Shown here: positions 15,915-28,601 of the stretch, in pieces
Layout: each line of letters opens with the position of its first letter
Numbering within the stretch: the stretch's first letter is position 1
Translations under genes and position numbers: made by a program
From: Oceanospirillaceae bacterium
GTDB lineage: Bacteria > Pseudomonadota > Gammaproteobacteria > Pseudomonadales > Oceanobacteraceae
Length of the DNA: 64,000 nt
Reading direction: 5' to 3'
Assembly: GCA_002724925.1 (NCBI GenBank)
Contig: PBQA01000028.1
Span: forward strand, 124,001 to 188,000
Notes under the pieces: generated by a model
What the model saw: the letters and a program-made list of their open reading frames with translations, nothing else
The model's database searches: none
Told to the model about the DNA's origin: nothing

Positions 15915-17126
15915 ATGATTAATTTAGAGAATCCGAAAAAATTCCGTGCCCTTGTTAACCAGGCACACCAGGTAGCGGCAAGTGTTTTCCGTCCGGTATC
16001 CCGTAAATACGACCGTTCTGAGCACGCTTACCCAATCGAACTTGACATGCTGGCCTCCATCATGGACGGCATGAACGACGGCACGACAGGCGAAGGCGCC
16101 GGTGCTGGCAAACTGAAGCAGGACAACGGTCCGAAGAAAGAAGGCATCCAGAACGGCACTAACATGTCGACGGTACTGTCTCTTGCTGAGCTGTGCTGGG
16201 GCGATGTTGGCCTGTCGCTGACCCTGCCACGTCAGGGCCTGGGTAACGCTGCGATTGCAGCGGTGGCTGATGACGAGCAGTTTGCTCGTTTCGGTGGCAA
16301 GTGGGCAGCCATGGCGATTACCGAGCCAGGCTTTGGTTCTGACTCGGCAGCTGTTCGTACCACGGCGATTCGTGATGGCGACGAGTACATCATCAACGGT
16401 GAAAAAATCTACGTTACCTCAGGCGAACGTGCTGACTGCGTTGTGGTCTGGGCAAGCGTTGACCGCTCTCTTGGTCGTGCGGCTATCAAGTCGTTCATCG
16501 TCGAGAAAGGCACGCCAGGTATGGACGTTGTCCGTCTTGAAAAGAAACTGGGTATCAAAGCGTCTGATACCGCAGCCATTACCTTTACCGACTGCCGTAT
16601 TCCAGCGAGCAACCTGCTGGGCGACCCAGAGGTGAACGTCGAGAAAGGTTTTGCCGGTGTCATGCAGACCTTTGATAACACCCGCCCGGTCGTGGCTGCC
16701 ATGGCGATTGGTGTGGCTAAGGCGTCTATCGACCGTACCCGCGAACTGCTGAAGCAGCTCAAAGTAAAAACCGATTACCGTACGCCGTACAAACTGGCTT
16801 CACAGCTGGAAGCCAAGTTGTATCGCTATGAGGCAGAATGGGAAGCAGCACGTCTGCTGACACTCAAAGCTGCATGGATGGCCGATAACGGCATGCCTAA
16901 CTCTAAAGAAGCATCCATGTCGAAAGCTAAGGCGGGCCGCACTGCTAATGAAATTACCCTAGGCTGTGTCGAGATGCTTGGCATGCTGGGTTACGGCGAA
17001 GACGAACTGCTTGAGAAGTGGTCACGTGACTCGAAGATTCTTGATATCTTCGAAGGCACACAGCAGATCCAGCAGCTGATTGTTGCTCGTCGACTGCTCG
17101 GCAAGTCATCCGCCGAACTGAAGTAA
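15915..17126 (+). CDS. Acyl-CoA dehydrogenase with catalytic glutamate
   Basis: A 403-residue ACAD that oxidises acyl-CoA at the alpha-beta bond using FAD and passes electrons to ETF. Visible features include ITEPGFGSDSAAVRTTA (about 135-151) in the FAD/substrate region, the beta domain NGEKIYVTSGE near 161, and a C-terminal IFEGTQQIQ in which Glu380 is the expected catalytic base. An insertion near 56-78 is Gly- and Lys-rich. It follows the Glu-less ACAD by 12 bases and was probably produced with it, then followed by an acyl-CoA synthetase, so the three form a fatty-acid activation and oxidation cluster. Confidence 0.9.
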   Translation: MINLENPKKFRALVNQAHQVAASVFRPVSRKYDRSEHAYPIELDMLASIMDGMNDGTTGEGAGAGKLKQDNGPKKEGIQNGTNMSTVLSLAELCWGDVGLSLTLPRQGLGNAAIAAVADDEQFARFGGKWAAMAITEPGFGSDSAAVRTTAIRDGDEYIINGEKIYVTSGERADCVVVWASVDRSLGRAAIKSFIVEKGTPGMDVVRLEKKLGIKASDTAAITFTDCRIPASNLLGDPEVNVEKGFAGVMQTFDNTRPVVAAMAIGVAKASIDRTRELLKQLKVKTDYRTPYKLASQLEAKLYRYEAEWEAARLLTLKAAWMADNGMPNSKEASMSKAKAGRTANEITLGCVEMLGMLGYGEDELLEKWSRDSKILDIFEGTQQIQQLIVARRLLGKSSAELK

Positions 17127-21754: not shown

Positions 21755-22003
21755 TTATTTACCCCAGGGGGTTGGCTTACTGGCTGAATGGAAAGTGCCG
21801 ACAAAAAGCTCCTCTACTTTGGTTCGCGCCCAAGGCGTACGCCGTAGAAACTTCAGCGACGATTTAACCGAAGGGTCTGACTTGAAGCAATTGATGTTTA
21901 TCCGGCTAGCCAGACCTTCCCAACCGTAGTGACCAACCAGCTGGTTGAGTATAGATTCGAGAGTCACTCCGTGAAGTGGGTCGTGTTTGTTGTGTTCTTT
22001 CAT
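21755..22003 (-). CDS. VF530-family DNA-binding protein
   Basis: An 82-residue protein that matches the VF530 family along its length: [44 protein letters not shown]. The Vibrio fischeri member has a solved fold and is regarded as DNA-binding; its role is unknown. The ATG at 22003 gives the usual N-terminus ([12 protein letters not shown]); a TTG at 22021 is also possible. It is in the accessory region just after yaiL. Confidence 0.85.
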
Positions 22004-22050
22004 AGATATGGGCCTGACCAACGAGGACTAAAGGTTGTTTGGATATACTT

Positions 22051-22245
22051 TCAAATGCCGTAGGTTTTCCTGGCCTGAGCAATCTGGCTCTCGACTGTTG
22101 TGCCCGACACCAAATAGTAACTCGGAGCGATAATGGGTTCCGATTTACTCACCTGCACTGCAATAATTCCCTGAATTGGAAAAGCATCGCCAATAGTCGG
22201 GCTCAATACTTCAGCGCACTTCTGACCCACTAGTAAAGCGAACAA
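22051..22245 (-). CDS. Possible small gene of unknown function
   Basis: A 64-residue frame beginning with TTG, with an AGAGGA about 12-15 bases upstream. The N-terminus is mildly hydrophobic and the rest has ordinary protein composition. I do not recognise it. The opposite strand has an overlapping frame of similar length (22039-22233) with less protein-like composition. Either could be spurious. Confidence 0.35.
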   Translation of the reverse strand: MFALLVGQKCAEVLSPTIGDAFPIQGIIAVQVSKSEPIIAPSYYLVSGTTVESQIAQARKTYGI

Positions 22246-22293
22246 GAATGAACTTTTTCCTCTTCAGGCAAAAAGGTCAGTCATTTCAATCGT

Positions 22294-22671
22294 TTAAACT
22301 TTAAACTCAATAGGGTCTTTCGATACAAAACCCTTCTTTCTCATGACCGTAATGGCAATAATCTGGCGATGATCACTACCTGTTCGATCAATACTCATTT
22401 CCACAGCACACGGTATATTGATATCTGTTTTAGTGCAGCGAACGTTAAAAGTATCGAGATGTTTCAGCAGAAGAAGTTTGCTGATATAAACTGTAGTAAG
22501 GCGATTAAAAATTCCTTTCAACTCAGTTAACGTGATACTTGGGTTATTTCTTGGGTGGTTCATTCGATCTTTCACAAAGTGAACCGACATTTTAAAGCTC
22601 AACCGATCCTGGGAAAATTGTTCATTAAGAACACTTTCCAATGTCGATATTTCATCCAACGAAATACTCAT
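22294..22671 (-). CDS. Hypothetical protein, possibly phage-related
   Basis: A 125-residue soluble protein with an N-terminal acidic helix and a C-terminal half rich in beta-prone residues (ITVMRKKGFVSKDPIEF at the end). I have only a vague recollection of similar small proteins in tailed phages of enterobacteria and vibrios, so the phage link is weak. It starts one base after the stop codon of the 71-residue gene upstream, so the two form a pair. Confidence 0.65.
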   Translation of the reverse strand: MSISLDEISTLESVLNEQFSQDRLSFKMSVHFVKDRMNHPRNNPSITLTELKGIFNRLTTVYISKLLLLKHLDTFNVRCTKTDINIPCAVEMSIDRTGSDHRQIIAITVMRKKGFVSKDPIEFKV

Positions 22672-22672
22672 G

Positions 22673-22888
22673 TTACTTCCCTTTAAATTTTCTAAAGACT
22701 TCTTCCAGTTTCGTATTGAGTTCGTCTGATGTTTTCGCTCGTATGATCCCCGCTTCTTGGGAATCAGTTACTGTGCCAATGCGTACCTCGAAATCCACAT
22801 TATCAAAAGATTCAACAAAGACGGCCTCCCCCGACTCTTTGTCTATGAATGAGGCATAATTGTCGTCAATTGACATATCAAACTTCAT
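22673..22888 (-). CDS. Small hypothetical protein, first of a two-gene pair
   Basis: 71 residues, acidic, with no membrane segment or recognisable motif. The ATG at 22888 is preceded by AGGGA at reasonable spacing. Its stop codon is one base before the ATG of the 125-residue gene, a classic coupled pair. The pair is on the minus strand in the AT-rich island. Confidence 0.6.
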   Translation of the reverse strand: MKFDMSIDDNYASFIDKESGEAVFVESFDNVDFEVRIGTVTDSQEAGIIRAKTSDELNTKLEEVFRKFKGK

Positions 22889-23000
22889 AAAGAATTCCCT
22901 ATACCATATTACCCATACAAACAGCCAACATCGTATGGCTACAGCCCCATATATACAATACGAGAAAGAAAATTAGATTATTAACCTAATCACCGGAACA

Positions 23001-23063
23001 AAAAACCTACGACCAGATGGATGAAGATGATCCATACGCAGCGTATCAGACCCCTGGTGATCT
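23001..23063 (+). pseudogene. Remnant of a yaiL 3' end
   Basis: Bases 23014-23063 match 21314-21363, the end of the yaiL-like gene, at 46 of 50 positions by my count, at an offset of exactly 1700. Translated in frame it reads EQKTYDQMDEDDPYAAYQTP, against EQTDGQMDEDDPYAAYQIP in the intact gene. A TAA lies just upstream in that frame and the frame runs on past the normal stop. It is a direct repeat flanking the small-gene island. Confidence 0.8.
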
Positions 23064-23118
23064 TACCGACTTCCAAGACACTCATTCAAAGAAATACGGT
23101 TGCACTACTTCACAGGAA

Positions 23119-23193
23119 ATTTCAAAGGAGAAATTTCAAAAATTTCAAAGGACAGTCATCCTAAAGTAATTCCAAAGGACAGTCATCCTAAGA
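23119..23193 (+). repeat. Short direct repeats ahead of the RAYT transposase
   Basis: CAAAGGACAGTCATCCTAA occurs at 23146-23164 and again at 23073+100, that is 23173-23191, 27 bases apart. Each copy contains AGGA...TCCT with a six-base centre. Just upstream, ATTTCAAA occurs three times. Short imperfect palindromes next to a Y1-type REP transposase fit the REP/BIME elements such proteins act on. Confidence 0.6.
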
Positions 23194-23262
23194 AGAATGC
23201 CTGATTTTCCTTTCAGGTCAACTCGTGTAAGGTAATTCTGTCAGCCAACATCAGGAGGATGT

Positions 23263-24270
23263 ATGCCAAAGCCAAGGAAGCAGCTCGTATCCCTCGAAGC
23301 CACCCCCTACTATCACTGCGTTTCTCGCTGTGTGCGCCGTGCCTTCTTGTGTGGCACAGACTCTGAAGGTCGTTCGTTTGAGCATCGCCGGGGATGGATT
23401 GAGAAGTTGATTCTCGATCAGGCTCAGGTCTTCTGTATAGATATTGCCGCTTATGCCGTTATGTCCAACCACTTTCATGTTGTACTGCATGTCAGTCAGC
23501 AACGTGCACGCGGACTAACGGATCTGGAGGTAGTTCAACGCTGGCATCAGCTCTATCAAGGGGTCTTACTTTCTCAGAAATTCGAACGCGGTGAGGAGCT
23601 GTCTGAATCACAGCAAGCCATGCTCGATGAGCGTATTGATGAGTGGCGAGAACGCCTGATGAGTATCAGCTGGTCTATGCGACGCCTGAACGAGACCGTC
23701 GCTCGTTTAGCAAATGAAGAAGACCAATGTACCGGCCATTTCTGGGAAGGTAGATTCAAGTCTCAAGCTCTTCTCGATGAAAAAGCCCTTGCTGCCTGCA
23801 TGGCGTATGTTGATTTAAACCCACTACGAGCCGCCATGACCAAAACCCCGGAAGAATCAGCTCATACGTCCGTAAAAAAACGCGCTGAAAAAGCCAAAGA
23901 AGCTCACTCACCGAATCACCCGCAACAGCAAGCCTATGGCTTACAGCCCTTCTCGGGTAACCCACGCAAGGACATGCCCGAAGGCATTCAGATGAGGCTA
24001 ACAGACTACTTAGATCTTGTTGACTGGACAGGTCGGCAGATCCGCGAAAACAAGCGAGGATCAATCTCAGAGGCAGAACCTGCCATCATGGATCGCTTAG
24101 GAATCGACGCCGAACACTGGCTCTACATCACTCAAAACTTCGAGTCAGAATTTAAAGGCATTGTCGGCGCAGCCCACGAGGTGAAATCAAAAATCACCAA
24201 ATTCTGGGACGGCCAACGAGAACGAAGGCGAGCCGCTGGCATCGCTGCATGTAAGTTACGCCTCTCTTAG
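23263..24270 (+). CDS. REP-associated tyrosine transposase (RAYT, Y1/IS200-like)
   Basis: A 335-residue protein of the TnpA-REP family. The HUH metal motif is HFHVVLH at about residues 70-76 after MSNH, and the AYVDLNPLRA segment near 181 holds the likely nucleophilic tyrosine. An arginine-rich N-terminus (MPKPRKQLVSL) and a long C-terminal extension (about 215-335) are typical of the longer RAYT forms of marine gammaproteobacteria. AGGAGG lies directly before the ATG. It is the only plus-strand gene between 21.4 and 27.4 kb and is flanked upstream by short repeats, so it may be domesticated or recently moved. Confidence 0.88.
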   Translation: MPKPRKQLVSLEATPYYHCVSRCVRRAFLCGTDSEGRSFEHRRGWIEKLILDQAQVFCIDIAAYAVMSNHFHVVLHVSQQRARGLTDLEVVQRWHQLYQGVLLSQKFERGEELSESQQAMLDERIDEWRERLMSISWSMRRLNETVARLANEEDQCTGHFWEGRFKSQALLDEKALAACMAYVDLNPLRAAMTKTPEESAHTSVKKRAEKAKEAHSPNHPQQQAYGLQPFSGNPRKDMPEGIQMRLTDYLDLVDWTGRQIRENKRGSISEAEPAIMDRLGIDAEHWLYITQNFESEFKGIVGAAHEVKSKITKFWDGQRERRRAAGIAACKLRLS

Positions 24271-24373
24271 AAGGCTCCTACCTACCGTAACTCCCAATCA
24301 GAACACTCTGAGAATTTGCCTCACCTGAAATCTAGCCTTTTTCACTTAAATAGCCATGAAATCTTTGTTTTTG

Positions 24374-24551
24374 ACAGCCTAACAACCCTATTTGATTAAC
24401 CGGGAAAAATTAGAGCAAGCAACAAGCGCTTTCTCTCTTACGATGACCGTCCACGTAGTCTAACAGCCTAACAACCCTATTTGATTAACCGGGAAAAATT
24501 AGAGCAAGCAACAAGCGCTTTCTCTCTTACGATGACCGTCCACGTAGTCTA
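24374..24551. repeat. Exact 89-bp tandem duplication containing an integron-like core heptamer
   Basis: Bases 24374-24462 and 24463-24551 are identical by my reading, period 89. Each unit carries GCCTAAC (24377-24383 and 24466-24472), which on the minus strand is GTTAGGC, a perfect match to the attC core GTTRRRY. If recombination occurs at this core, each unit has the size of a lone attC. The hairpin arms are less clear than in the other attC-like sites, so this could also be a simple tandem duplication. The right copy includes the 3' end of the minus-strand ankyrin-like frame. Confidence 0.85.
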
Positions 24552-25016
24552 GGCCTCCCCTAGCATCAATATTGTGGCCGTCAACAAGCAGTCTTCTGAT
24601 CAATTCTCGGTCCTTGTGCTTTACAGCCCAATGAAGTGGAGTTATGGCGTTTAGTTTTTCTCCGAGGTCCACGCATGTCTCTTTAAGGCAGGCCGTTACC
24701 CGAGGCTGCTCTACCGAGCAAACTGAGGCTATAGTTCTTTCGCTGTGATATTTTCTTTCAAGCTCATAATGGATCTCAACCAAAGATGCTATCATGGCGG
24801 GCTCGACAGCATTTTCTGAATAAATAATAAACTTACTGTAGCCTCCACACACTCTGTGGCCCACGCCAATAGTTCTGCAATCAGCATCTGATTTACAAGA
24901 CAAGTCTTTGGTTTGCTCCCTTATCCTCTGCTCCAAACTTTCTATTTCCTCGGTTTGCCCAAACGCTAAAAATGGAATGCACATAAGGAGTAACACAAAA
25001 ACTGACGCCGACTCAT
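24499..25016 (-). pseudogene. Secreted ankyrin-repeat-like protein, frameshifted in the signal peptide and probably 3'-truncated
   Basis: The open frame from GTG 24996 encodes a hydrophobic N-terminus, a Cys-containing middle, and one ankyrin-like unit (NAITPLHWAVKHKDRELIRRLL) before it runs into the 89-bp repeat. A proper start, ATG at 25014-25016 with AAGAGG upstream, is in another frame. Adding one T to the run at 24997-25001 would give MSRRQFFVLLLMCIPFLAFG, a textbook signal peptide. So the gene seems to have lost one base, or the base call is wrong. After NIDARGG the ankyrin pattern stops, consistent with truncation at the duplicated segment. Confidence 0.6.
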
Positions 25017-25053
25017 TTGGCGTACCTCTTAAGTTCTAATTCCGCGCTAGAAA

Positions 25054-25125
25054 GCAAGCCAAGCGAGTTCTAGTGACGGCCACGTTTTATCTGTGGCAGT
25101 AACGAATTTCAGCCGCTTGTTATGA
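25054..25125 (-). repeat. attC-like site A
   Basis: A long imperfect hairpin directly at the stop codon of the minus-strand gene at 25120-25482. Outer arms CAAGCG/CGCTTG enclose inner arms GCCAC/GTGGC, with unpaired bases between. The end near the stop has GTTATGA (plus strand 25119-25125), close to the core heptamer; the other end is eroded. The next minus-strand gene begins about 40 bases further on. Confidence 0.45.
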
Positions 25126-25482
25126 TTTGAAGTCATTGACAAAGTTATTTCTCATGTACTTAGGCCAGCTTGGGTATACTGATCTGAAATGGTCTAGTAT
25201 CCTTTTCTCCATATAGAACCTGTCCAACTCATCGAACCTAACAGGATCTTTATTACCAGATGATAACTTTTCATAAGCAGCCTTATGGAAAGCACAGAAG
25301 ATCACATATGACATCAAATTATGCCATTCATTAATTTTTGACTGGCCGATCTCCGCTTTATCCCAAACACCACAGAGCGTCGGGAAGTATCCACGTCCCT
25401 GTTCACCAAGCCCTCCATCGCTAATAACTACTTGCGACGGCCAAAATAGTCTACTTTCTCTAATTAGTCTACTCAATTTCAT
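25120..25482 (-). CDS. Hypothetical cassette protein
   Basis: 120 residues, soluble, with Trp- and Tyr-rich segments (NEWHNLMSYVIF near 51, SVYPSWPKYMRNN near 101). I do not recognise it. I place the start at ATG 25482 (MKLSRLIRES) and not at 25599, because the extra 39 codons would be translated straight through the hairpin at 25485-25568. The gene sits between two attC-like sites, as an integron cassette would. Its codon use is AT-richer than the housekeeping genes nearby. Confidence 0.6.
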   Translation of the reverse strand: MKLSRLIRESRLFWPSQVVISDGGLGEQGRGYFPTLCGVWDKAEIGQSKINEWHNLMSYVIFCAFHKAAYEKLSSGNKDPVRFDELDRFYMEKRILDHFRSVYPSWPKYMRNNFVNDFKS

Positions 25483-25484
25483 AA

Positions 25485-25568
25485 AGATAACGACGCCGTA
25501 ATAAAAGGCGAGCGTTAGCGAATCCAGCCCGTGATTATCGCGGGCGGTTTTCAATTGCTTTTTTATGC
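25485..25568 (-). repeat. attC-like site B
   Basis: An 84-base imperfect inverted repeat between two minus-strand genes. Arms pair as ATAAAA/TTTTAT at the outside, then AA-CC, then CCCG/CGGG around the centre, with bulges between. The ends are GCATAAA and GTTATCT on the minus strand, near to RYYYAAC and GTTRRRY. The stop codon of the upstream gene lies inside one end and the next ATG is 3 bases beyond the other, the spacing expected in cassette arrays. Confidence 0.5.
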
Positions 25569-25927
25569 ATTTATAAACGGTATGTCGCCATACCCCCAAA
25601 TTAGTGTACCAATAGCAATTAGCGTGAAAGCTATTTTATTTAGCAGACCAGGCCAATGGTTATTTTTAGCTTTAAACTCGTTAAACCCTACCTCTACGAA
25701 ACCCGACGGATTGAAAATATTAAATATTTTTATGGCATTCGCTTCTGCTAGCAATGCAAGAACTACCATTGCTGCACCACTACGAGAAAACCAAATGCCA
25801 AAATCAACGTCCTCAGGTCTCCAAGGTACAAAGAAAATAAAAATGGTGCCGCGACTGCTAAGCCTGTAAAGGAAAAGAACCTTATACGTTCTTTACTTAA
25901 CATACCTTCATACAATTCCTCAGACAT
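25563..25927 (-). pseudogene. Membrane protein split by a frameshift (cassette gene)
   Basis: Two overlapping frames make sense only together. The first, from ATG 25927 with AAGGGAAGG directly upstream, encodes about 54 residues with a hydrophobic helix and stops at 25763. The second encodes VDFGIWFSRSGAAMVVLALL, a charged stretch and a final hydrophobic helix, ending at 25563. Joining them near 25780-25800 gives a three-helix membrane protein of about 120 residues with the common FGIWFSRSGA motif. Either one base was lost or gained, or the sequence has an error. The family is unknown to me. Confidence 0.55.
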
Positions 25928-25939
25928 ACCTTCCCTTAT

Positions 25940-26033
25940 GCATAACGCTTTGCTAAGCGGCAATAAAATAGCTGGCTACAATTAGCGAGAAAAGAGCAAT
26001 TACCAGCTTTTCCGTTTTAGCAGATTGTTTAGT
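25940..26033 (-). repeat. attC-like site C (best candidate)
   Basis: A 94-base imperfect palindrome starting right at the stop codon of the DUF4062 gene. Its far end reads GCGTTATGC on the minus strand, the form common at attC right ends, and is followed by AAGGGAAGGT and the next ATG. The near end reads ACTAAAC, one base off RYYYAAC. Arms include TGCTAA/TTAGCA, CCG/CGG and AGCTGG/CCAGCT with extra unpaired bases on one side, and a variable centre. Size, position and ends all fit an integron attC. Confidence 0.6.
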
Positions 26034-27083
26034 TTACTTTAGAAGCTCATTCAATATTTTTTCCCGCTGCTCTAGCGTGGACTTACGAACACCTTTCTCA
26101 AAATTAACATATATAGGGCGCTTATTTTTTACAGAAGCTTCTATTTCCAAACAGTATTCGCCAGTGGCAAACATTAGGTGTCGACCACCTTCATCCCACC
26201 CCAAATCATCCGTGTAGAAAATACCTGTTTCTATTAAATATTCCACCCATGATTTATTCTCAGGAGTAATCGAAGCAATCTTTTTAATTTCTTCATCTTC
26301 ACTAAATTGATCAATCTCAATATCGATTGGAATATCGCCGTCCAAGTTAAATATCTCAGTAAAAAACTTTTTAGTAATTGCGTAAGTTTCTATTTCACTT
26401 ATTGATTCCTCAGCCTTGGCTTCATCAGGGCTAGATGAACGATACAAACTCTTTACAAGTGCCTCTAATTTGCCATTGGAATCTTTTAAATTACTCAATA
26501 AATGATTAGTAGCATCAATTTGAGTTTTAACTTCTCTAGTTCTCAGAAATTCGAAGAAAAGCCCAGCCCACTGTTTCCGCAAATGAACTTCTATATCATT
26601 AAAATTAGAAAAGCCCTCAAAAGCATTATTAACTGGAGAACGGCGTACTTCGTCTATAAATTTAAATATACTTTCTGCATCATCCTGTTTTTCTATCGCA
26701 GGAAAATTAATTTTATCAATAAATTTCTGATTGCGATTCTCTCTATAAATATGGTGATTATTAAGAACTGAATTTCTTATATAAGTGAAAACAGGTATAT
26801 TTGCAGCTTTAGCTGCTTCATATTCTGCATTGGTAATGGATTTGGATTTATCTTTCACATATCCACCACCAAACCGCCCTCCAACAATCAAAATAAATAG
26901 TTGACAGTTGGATACTTCATGCACACATGCATCATGAGTATGAAGATCAGGATGATAGAATACGTCTCCGTGTTCACTTAGTATTGGATCGAAACCAAAC
27001 GATCTAACAAACTTGTTCAATTGCTCTCTTACTTCAGATAAATCAAAACAGGTAGAGCTTATAAAAACTTTTGGTGTAGCCAA
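26034..27083 (-). CDS. DUF4062 domain protein, possible conflict/defence gene
   Basis: A 349-residue protein beginning with KVFISSTCFDLSEVREQL, the hallmark of DUF4062 (about 4-95), followed by LFILIVGGRFGGGY near 63 and NAEYEAAKAANIPVF near 85. The rest (about 100-349) is charged and without a recognised domain. DUF4062 is regarded as TIR-like and occurs at the front of STAND NTPases and other conflict-system proteins; here it stands without an NTPase. TTG 27083 is the likely start, with GGAG upstream. Low GC and the attC-like hairpin at its 3' end point to acquisition as a cassette. Function is inferred, not shown. Confidence 0.75.
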   Translation of the reverse strand: MATPKVFISSTCFDLSEVREQLNKFVRSFGFDPILSEHGDVFYHPDLHTHDACVHEVSNCQLFILIVGGRFGGGYVKDKSKSITNAEYEAAKAANIPVFTYIRNSVLNNHHIYRENRNQKFIDKINFPAIEKQDDAESIFKFIDEVRRSPVNNAFEGFSNFNDIEVHLRKQWAGLFFEFLRTREVKTQIDATNHLLSNLKDSNGKLEALVKSLYRSSSPDEAKAEESISEIETYAITKKFFTEIFNLDGDIPIDIEIDQFSEDEEIKKIASITPENKSWVEYLIETGIFYTDDLGWDEGGRHLMFATGEYCLEIEASVKNKRPIYVNFEKGVRKSTLEQREKILNELLK

Positions 27084-27449
27084 TTACTTCTCCTGTAAAA
27101 TTAACAGTTTGTTAGTGTGCGTACGCATTTATCCTGGGACACTCTATCGAGGTTTCCAGAGTAGCGATCTGACATCATTGAAGTATCTTCCATAACTTAG
27201 ATCTCCCTTCTGAATATACGAGCATACTTAGCTATTTAACTCGTGCTCACGCCTGGCTCAGGCGCCAAGCTTTCTTTCAATACACCGAGCATACCGACCT
27301 TAGCGCTGTATGCAAAGTGCCTGAGGCGACGCCATATCAGCTCCCGATTCACTTCATATACCCTGACCTACGTCATTGCCCTTCCCCCGCCCACTCTATA
27401 TGTTATGGCCTATACGGAAATCCACGGTCACTGACCTACGAGGGCCATT
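27084..27449. other. Gene-poor stretch of 366 bases at the end of the accessory region
   Basis: Lies between the divergent DUF4062 and HlyD-like genes. It should hold both promoters. TGCGTACGCA near 27119-27128 is a 10-base palindrome, and GCCTG/CAGGC near 27253 is a short inverted repeat. A 30-codon minus-strand frame (27101-27193) is listed separately. No integrase gene or clear attI site is visible. Confidence 0.6.
27101..27193 (-). CDS. Possible 30-residue upstream ORF
   Basis: ATG at 27193 with GGGAG about 10 bases upstream, reading MEDTSMMSDRYSGNLDR and ending VRTLTNC, 17 bases before the DUF4062 start. It may be a leader ORF, the remnant of an older gene, or chance. I do not recognise it. 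Confidence 0.25.
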   Translation of the reverse strand: MEDTSMMSDRYSGNLDRVSQDKCVRTLTNC

Positions 27450-28601
27450 ATGAGTCTTCCCTCTCCTAAACTTCTGATTCCTATTGTGTTGATTGGCGCA
27501 GGTGTCGCCGCTGTGCGCTTCTGGCCTGAGAGCCCGCTTGATGTCACGGTATCTAAGGCCTCTGTCGGCTTAGTCGAAGCGAGTGTCGCCAATACCCGCT
27601 CAGGTACGGTTAAGGCGTGCCAGCGTTCGCGCTTGTCGCTGCCTCTTGGTGGCCAGGTAAGTGTTCTCTATGTTGCTCAGGGCGATAAAGTTGAAGCAGG
27701 CGCGCCTTTGATGGAGCTTTGGAACGAAGACATTCGTGCCACTCTGGCGACTGCTGAGGCTCAGCTGGATACTGCCAAGCTTTCGCACGAGGCTACCTGT
27801 ACGCAGTCGCAATCAGATAAGCGTGAAGAGCGGCGTATTCATGATCTTCATAAGCGCCAGATGGCATCCTCTGAGCAGTTAGACCGCGCCGAAACAGCTG
27901 CAACCATCAGTGAGCTTTCGTGCAAACAGCAAGAAACCCTGATTACACAAGCCTCTGCCAATCTGGACCTACAGAAAGCGCGCTTTGCACAGACACAATT
28001 ACGAGCGCCATTCGCAGGGATTATTGCTGAGGTGAATGCCGAGATCGGGGAATACGCGACGCCGTCGCCGCCGGGTGTCGCTACCCCACCCGCGATTGAT
28101 TTAATTAACCCGGATTGTTTTTACGTGCAGGCTCCGATTGATGAGGTGGATGCGGCTCAGGTCGCACTGGATATGCCGGTACGGGTTACGCTGGATGCCT
28201 TCGGCGACCGTACTTTTGATGGCCATGTCTCGCGTATATCGCCTTACATTCAGGATGAAGAAAAGCAGGCCCGTACCGTGGATGTTGATGTGCGCCTTAA
28301 CGAGCTTCCTGAAGGCACCCATCTGTTGATTGGTTACAGCGCCGATATCGAGGTGATTACGGCAACCTCTGAGAACACCCTGCGGCTGCCCACCGAGCTT
28401 TTAATCGACACGGATCACGTAATGCTCACCAGAGACGGCAAGGCCGTTAAGCAGCAAGTCGAGCTTGGCCTGACTAACTGGACCTGGAGCGAAGTCACCA
28501 GCGGGCTGAATAGCGACAATCAGATCATTAATGAACCCGGCCAGAGCGATCTGGAAGGTGGCCGTACGGTTCGAGTGTTGGATACCGACGCTAATGACTG
28601 A
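27450..28601 (+). CDS. HlyD/MacA-type periplasmic adaptor subunit
   Basis: A 383-residue membrane fusion protein: one N-terminal membrane anchor (about 7-22), a lipoyl half-motif (VSVLYVAQGDKVEAGAPL near 71-88), a coiled-coil hairpin (about 100-175), the returning half (TQLRAPFAGIIAEVNAEIGEY near 180-200), then beta-barrel domains. It links an inner-membrane ABC transporter to an outer-membrane channel. GAGG precedes the ATG. It overlaps the ATPase gene by 8 bases; no TolC-like gene is in the window. Confidence 0.87.
   Translation: MSLPSPKLLIPIVLIGAGVAAVRFWPESPLDVTVSKASVGLVEASVANTRSGTVKACQRSRLSLPLGGQVSVLYVAQGDKVEAGAPLMELWNEDIRATLATAEAQLDTAKLSHEATCTQSQSDKREERRIHDLHKRQMASSEQLDRAETAATISELSCKQQETLITQASANLDLQKARFAQTQLRAPFAGIIAEVNAEIGEYATPSPPGVATPPAIDLINPDCFYVQAPIDEVDAAQVALDMPVRVTLDAFGDRTFDGHVSRISPYIQDEEKQARTVDVDVRLNELPEGTHLLIGYSADIEVITATSENTLRLPTELLIDTDHVMLTRDGKAVKQQVELGLTNWTWSEVTSGLNSDNQIINEPGQSDLEGGRTVRVLDTDAND

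Follow-up and report, generated by a model that had tools for sequence, protein, structure and literature searches.

The AT-rich gene array on the minus strand of the window (the whole stretch of 64,000 nucleotides analysed, positions 124,001 to 188,000 of contig PBQA01000028.1 in the Oceanospirillaceae assembly GCA_002724925.1) is, in our view, probably a decayed gene cassette platform without an integrase of its own. It would consist of an attI leader and the cassettes that follow it, and would be one of about ten such platforms in the genome, on which a single integron integrase (IntI) acts in trans. This reading is drawn from sequence comparison within the genome and with its relatives. 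As a mechanism we propose that the one IntI of the cell would recombine cassettes in trans into any attI leader, that one integrase would feed many insertion points, and that new platforms would arise when the end of the integron next to intI is copied to other sites.

The cassette array in the window

Across the minus-strand gene run at 24499-27083 the GC content is 0.393, compared with 0.51 for the whole window, and the lowest value among the 2.7-kb stretches of the window (sampled every 500 bases) is 0.392. An earlier reading of the sequence alone had pointed out this row of AT-rich genes, rightly as the composition shows, and had described it as a small integrase-less cassette array (CALIN) in decay with attC hairpins in the spacers. 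It had staked its case on two points, namely that an attC covariance model would match the spacers, and that the same genes would not be found at fixed syntenic positions in related genomes. With regard to the latter, approximately 22003-27106 has no counterpart at the same place in the two compared relatives, Thalassolituus maritimus DSM 24913 (G003) and an Oleibacter marinus MAG (G008), the one exception being 59 bp at 23005-23063.

The spacers were scored with an attC covariance model, R1, which was made in this analysis and gives rough E-values. R1 was built on 23 attC sites found in relatives and on other contigs of the same genome, with no site from the window among them, and the test of the spacers is therefore free of circularity. 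Seeds had been picked with a loosened motif finder that was later replaced by the covariance model. The R and L arm pairs covary across the 23 sites, with 89.1% of the cells paired and a covariation score of 0.615; shuffles score 0.163 and slid versions no more than 0.110. The training sites had been partly chosen for pairing. The features of the array are as follows.

22003..27105, no strand: the entire variable stretch of the window platform, both flanks being alike in G008 and G003
25946..27104, minus strand: cassette 1, with bounds set by the crossover and the R' box
26034-27083, minus strand: cassette 1 ORF, a DUF4062 protein of 349 aa with a TTG start (PF13271, E 9.5e-24, above cut-off)
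25940..26033, minus strand: attC site 1, R' box GTTATGC (R1 21.3 bits, E 0.0049; top match of the window)
25491..25945, minus strand: cassette 2, two short, overlapping hydrophobic frames at 25763-25963 and 25563-25769
25485..25568, minus strand: attC site 2, R' box GTTATCT and decayed R'' box GCATAAA (R1 17.8 bits, E 0.038; second match of the window)
25120..25490, minus strand: cassette 3, a 120-aa orphan protein (ORF 25120-25482)
25054..25125, minus strand: possible attC relic, 5' half only (unreported by R1 up to E 10)
24499..25035, minus strand: gene with a single ankyrin repeat (PF00023, E 3e-5, 24.5 bits, cut-off 21.1)
24374..24551, minus strand: exact tandem repeat of 2 x 89 bp (copies 24374-24462 and 24463-24551), extending into the end of the ankyrin gene

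The two best R1 matches in the 64 kb are the spacers at 25940-26033 and 25485-25568, both on the minus strand, and the next match has an E-value of 2. Two of the three hairpins proposed as attC sites are thus upheld by R1, and the third is the relic at 25054-25125, in which a good 5' half, CATAACAAGCGG, is read by eye without a 3' R' box. DNA folding alone gives modest hairpins, with z-scores against shuffles of -0.41, -2.83 and -0.98 for the three spacers (the last computed on 25040-25125); the proposed folding of the bottom strands is therefore borne out slightly for 25485-25568, the sole spacer that stands out a little, and not for the other two. The attC sites of the window are weak.

The two frames of cassette 2 look like a single small membrane-protein gene broken by a frameshift; the cassette had no match in Pfam or PADLOC. 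The protein of cassette 3 has no match in Pfam, NCBIfam or PADLOC and is present in 1 of the 293 genomes of the order, its own. Searches of PADLOC and NCBIfam with the window cassettes gave nothing informative, and against plasmids the DUF4062 protein matched seven records, every one below 60% identity. The ankyrin-repeat gene at 24499-25035 is perhaps a fourth cassette. An Rfam scan at gathering thresholds returned a tRNA as its sole match.

The 89-bp repeat had also been put forward on account of its GTTAGGC motifs. It is indeed an exact tandem, and as an attC site it was rejected, R1 being silent and the folding no better than that of shuffles (z +0.30).

The attI leader at the head of the array

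Directly before cassette 1 lies a stretch which is homologous to the sequence between intI and the first cassette on contig C31 of the same genome.

27102..27250, minus strand: attI leader, directly before cassette 1, a copy of the C31 sequence from intI to the first cassette
27104..27105, minus strand: attI crossover CTG^TTAATT, with the G at 27105; conservation over 35 anchored leaders drops right past CTGTTA
27101..27193, minus strand: 30-codon open frame inside the leader, its stop TAA spanning the junction

The strongest part of the leader, 27102-27209, is 81% identical to C31. The local alignment score between the window and the C31 attI region is 148, while the top score of 300 mononucleotide shuffles is 40, and in a genome search with the C31 attI the window leader was found at E 1.4e-23. 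The homology runs up to the crossover, so that by sequence the array does have an attI before its first cassette as a complete integron has, but it has no adjoining intI: the genome holds 8 matches to PF00589 and 3 to TIGR02249, none of them on the contig of the window, just as the sequence-only reading had noted for the window itself. With at least two attC sites by R1 (the default threshold of IntegronFinder is 2) and no integron integrase nearby, the array also fits the description of a CALIN. A cassette of the Delta-attI type is a poor description of it, since the leader precedes the first cassette and adjoins a conserved chromosomal flank.

The claim of a CALIN in decay accordingly holds for the attC cassettes, the missing neighbouring integrase and the decay, but not for a bare cluster of attC sites, since an attI leader heads the array. 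A plain CALIN, in which cassettes have entered attG-type chromosomal sites or are the remaining tail of a broken integron, with no attI involved, would account for the missing integrase and the decayed attC sites, and recurrent CALIN loci are described for Xanthomonas in the accessible text of PMC12444791. It does not account for a leader before cassette 1 that matches the attI of the main integron, nor for the leaders heading other arrays, and we regard it as very improbable.

A consensus scan of 26900-27460 found no sigma-70-like cassette promoter (Pc). C31 likewise showed no promoter in the direction of the cassettes, and the one match on its other strand was at chance level. The 30-codon frame inside the leader was considered as a selected peptide and rejected. 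It is present in 28 of 43 leaders, and among the 27 of equal length that were analysed the mean pairwise difference by codon position is 0.209, 0.196 and 0.223, with internal stops in 5 of the 27, suggesting that the frame is probably not a selected peptide.

Leaders and integrase in the same genome

The sole integron-integrase locus of the genome is on C31, where positions 1-131 and 273-314 of the profile are matched and nothing between them, which means that the middle of intI is missing through an internal deletion. The only other TIGR02249 match is weak (23.7 bits) and lies in a recombinase gene on C32. C31 has two clear attC sites.

When the C31 attI was used as query, eight leader copies were found on eight contigs, 81-100% identical, together with two 18-bp matches. 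A second leader type, for which the main integron of G002 served as query, was found at two more places on contig C7. This chromosome, that of a marine Thalassolituus, thus appears, from these homologies, to hold about ten scattered attI leaders, one of which stands beside intI, a broken one. With intI broken on C31 the window platform is presumably no longer served; the platforms of this strain are presumably frozen, and that of the window much worn. The core of the window platform still has an intact form (CTG^TTAATT); its counterparts in G008 and G003 are altered (CTTTCA and TTGGTA), and no attC was found at the orthologous position there.

The attC search of the whole genome scored 150 of 770 first-look candidates. 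It listed 17 matches with E no higher than 1. The two sites of the window are not among them, and 11 of the 17 lie downstream of a leader and on its strand. Five further listed matches are found at the far end of C27; the flank there matches the sequence in which the C36 platform continues in G008, so that these five probably belong to C36. The remaining listed match, on C21, is weak (E 0.12) and has no leader.

Leaders and integrase in related genomes

The C31 leader has matches in 22 of 93 related genomes, its own included and some of them short pieces only, and in 11 of the 93 there are at least four matches. An intact intI with an adjoining C31-type leader is present in G003, G008 and G023, and within the genus an intI match above the cut-off was found in 6 of 9 genomes, the present one included. 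The main attI and the C31-type satellites, i.e. the leaders that do not adjoin intI, differ in type in G002, G005 and G007. The complete genome G006 has no match to the C31 leader at E 1e-3 and carries a leader type of its own, in six near-full copies and one partial copy, one of the copies adjoining the intact G006 intI. All 9 of the 9 aligned main leaders contain the motif CTG-N10-CAG, which we take to be of the LexA type, and intI is therefore probably under SOS control.

Support is weak overall in a tree of 53 leaders (9 of 50 inner branches starred; the split row G003_C7 included). In this tree the G006 copies cluster with the G006 main attI (94/99) and the sister-genus leaders, 15 in number, fall together (100/99), while other groupings follow chromosomal position: the window leader with G008:C2 and G003:C15 (100/93), and C27 with G003:C14 (100/89). 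Some orthologous sets are left ungrouped, e.g. C36 with G003:C19 and C30 with G008:C20. The groupings by position and by genome indicate that some copies are old and occupy the same place across species, and that others arose within a lineage.

Crossover and cassette turnover at orthologous platforms

For a wider comparison 43 leaders were fetched as loci from ten genomes, the set being complete for G000, G003, G008, G023, G002, G005 and G031 and partial for G001, G007 and G027, with one match to the first part of the leader only left out. Cassettes with attC sites lie downstream on the same strand in 27 of the 43; no attC was found downstream of the other 16, and in 5 of these less than 900 bp of contig remain. 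At ten further loci of the G006 type, two of them with partial leaders, an attC was found downstream in eight.

Conservation was counted over the 35 of the 43 leaders that could be anchored on CTGTT, which makes CTGTT itself conserved by construction and excludes the 8 leaders that lack it. The information content is 0.69-2.0 bits at the 25 positions preceding CTGTT (at least 1.18 at 21 of them) and 0.04-0.74 bits at the 19 positions past CTGTTA.

Six sets of orthologous platforms were compared, five satellites and the main one. Flank and leader are alike within a set, and the likeness stops at the core or within about 22 bases of it. C30 and G008:C20, for example, are alike from -4527 to +6 and show no likeness thereafter. 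C9 and G008:C26 part at the core and become alike again at +2178 and +1605, the positions at which the last attC of the respective platform ends. For the pairs L102, L106 and L107 one partner has less than 100 bp of contig past the core, and a change of content cannot be judged there. Judging by these alignments, several species carry leader copies at the same fixed positions, with different cassettes behind them.

These results also bear on the idea that the leader is not an attI at all but a mobile promoter or repeat element standing by chance beside intI and cassettes. Many copies do have nearly the same left end, (A)ATGTAAAG, as such an element might; but in main integrons the leader sits between intI and the cassettes, on its right side it is conserved up to the G^TT crossover, and orthologous copies are fixed in place. 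We consider this explanation very unlikely.

One exact case links the two kinds of attI. Cassette 1 of C31 and cassette 1 of G003:C19 are 100% identical over 466 bp, a unit made up of a 110-aa ORF and its attC, the identity running from the core into the R' box. The leaders before them are about 80% alike without gaps, and the 1500 bp that follow show no similarity. G003:C19 is the satellite orthologous to C36, and the intI of G003 lies elsewhere (C21). Such sharing would be expected if one cassette can enter either kind of attI. It is the only exact cassette common to a main and a satellite attI among the platforms compared; weaker shared stretches are G001:C43 with G031:C32 (913 bp at 86%) and G003:C15 with G031:C73 (339 bp at 80%).

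Gain and origin of the platforms

G008:C4 lacks the C7 platform at the corresponding place, its flank matches standing 55 bp apart, and G003:C18 has an unrelated insert at that position. A target-site duplication could not be read, the empty place in G008:C4 being too diverged and G003:C18 carrying the insert. Counterparts of the C10 platform exist in G008 and G002; the G003 leader at this position is split by about 16 kb. In the sequence examined behind the same gene, no leader was found in G001, G005, G006 and G007.

Two of the G006 satellites retain about 72 and 18 codons, respectively, from the beginning of intI, so that platforms seem to come about by copying of the intI-proximal end. A fixed transposon-like left end was considered as well and rejected as a firm claim; two G006 copies reach into intI and others start later.

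The same intI remnants could be what is left of full integrons, each platform having once had an intI of its own that was later lost, without any service in trans, and the platforms lacking a normal core or an attC would agree with relics of this kind. Against this, no intI match was found at 34 of the 36 satellite loci examined, quite different cassettes occupy the same positions in close species, and the 100% identical cassette stands at a G003 satellite that does not adjoin intI, whereas flanks are about 85% identical between the species. We therefore think it unlikely that the platforms are relics only, and prefer platforms served by a single IntI in trans, that of the window being decayed. 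The broader model, a distributed integron in which one SOS-controlled IntI serves about ten attI platforms and the leader is the spreading unit, recopied in each lineage, is in our opinion somewhat more likely than not to be correct, and would mean that a genome has many separate first-cassette positions at once and not one.

Comparison with known integrons

The system shares with sedentary chromosomal integrons a TIGR02249 IntI, an attI with a G^TTRRRY-type core, a LexA-type motif before intI, and attC hairpins that have R and L arms as well as an extra base. It differs in the number of attI sites: integrons typically have one attI near the integrase and one array, as described in the accessible text of PMC9024848, whereas we find about ten leaders, one of them near a broken intI. 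According to the same text the standard program does not detect attI sites outside class 1, which is why a pattern of several attI sites would be easily missed.

Literature searches, which mostly covered papers outside subscription and left preprints aside, found no paper on several attI platforms per genome and none joining integrons with Thalassolituus; PMC9892861, in its accessible part, deals with phage attC sites and class 1 attI. Set against the known kinds of integron, several attI leaders per genome appear to be new, the in-trans step being inferred. In the genus and its sister genus several leaders per genome at stable positions would give new cassettes many possible points of entry. 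Some arrays of cassettes without an integrase, commonly regarded as debris, could be explained in this way, and the natural sets of attI variants belonging to each integrase should be useful for learning what makes an attI.

CALINs are alike in having attC-tagged cassettes without an adjoining integrase, and the accessible text of PMC12444791 reports such arrays at recurrent loci in Xanthomonas that are said to be mobilisable in trans; it makes no mention of a CALIN attI, whereas the arrays described here are headed by an attI leader copied from the resident integron. Cassettes of the Delta-attI type in mobile integrons also carry attI sequence away from the main attI, as pieces behind cassette genes that are still used by IntI1 (PMC12901181, accessible part). 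There the attI piece replaces the attC within the array, while the present arrays are each headed, at a new chromosomal place, by a leader of about 300 bp. Finally, attG sites are another chromosomal route by which cassettes enter outside the main array (PMC12444791 and PMC12901181, accessible parts), but they are not copies of attI, whereas the leaders described here are.

Gene content of the variable stretch and of a second cassette

Between the flanks that are alike in Oleibacter marinus and Thalassolituus maritimus, the variable stretch of the window (22003-27105) contains two features outside the decayed cassette array itself:

23005-23063: 59-bp piece, present at the same locus in both of these relatives
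23263-24270, plus strand: gene adjoining the array, whose 335-aa product weakly matches a Y1 transposase

The 59-bp piece is 86-88% identical to both relatives, while its surroundings are unlike. The 335-aa protein scored 23.2 bits against PF01797 (Y1 transposase), where the cut-off is 23, and 40.2 bits with the REP-associated transposase model, which is below the cut-off of 80.

On the contig carrying the intI locus of the same genome (C31) we located one further feature:

L012 14256-16165: second cassette, approximately 2 kb, flanked by two clear attC sites

Within it lie genes for a cupin-like (ChrR-like) protein, for a short-chain dehydrogenase, which is encoded on the strand opposite that of the array, and for a regulator that gives a weak RrpB-like match.

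Leader sequences and their junctions

When the leader frame is read into a cassette starting with TTRR, the codon formed exactly at the junction is TAA, TAG, TGA or TGG (window 27101-27104 and other leaders), and therefore translation of the leader would mostly stop at the cassette start. No sign of selection on the leader-frame peptide was found.

In T. maritimus the same sequence (AATGAAATGGACACCCCTCCCTTAC) follows AAGCT at three attI sites, including the main one, and at all three the contig ends about 85 bp further on:

L106: from 4122
L107 and L108: below 87

A single insertion element appears to sit at each of these three cores.

Two satellite leaders of the related complete genome G006 retain pieces of the start of intI, approximately 18 codons in L164 (2865-2914) and 72 in L165 (8424-8658), and these leaders may be intermediates on the way to losing or spreading a platform. 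The L108 satellite leader of T. maritimus (contig C7) lies in two pieces, at about 91-178 and 16316-16365, separated by approximately 16 kb and overlapping by about 5 bases of leader sequence, an arrangement resembling that left by a transposon whose insertion duplicates a short stretch of its target.
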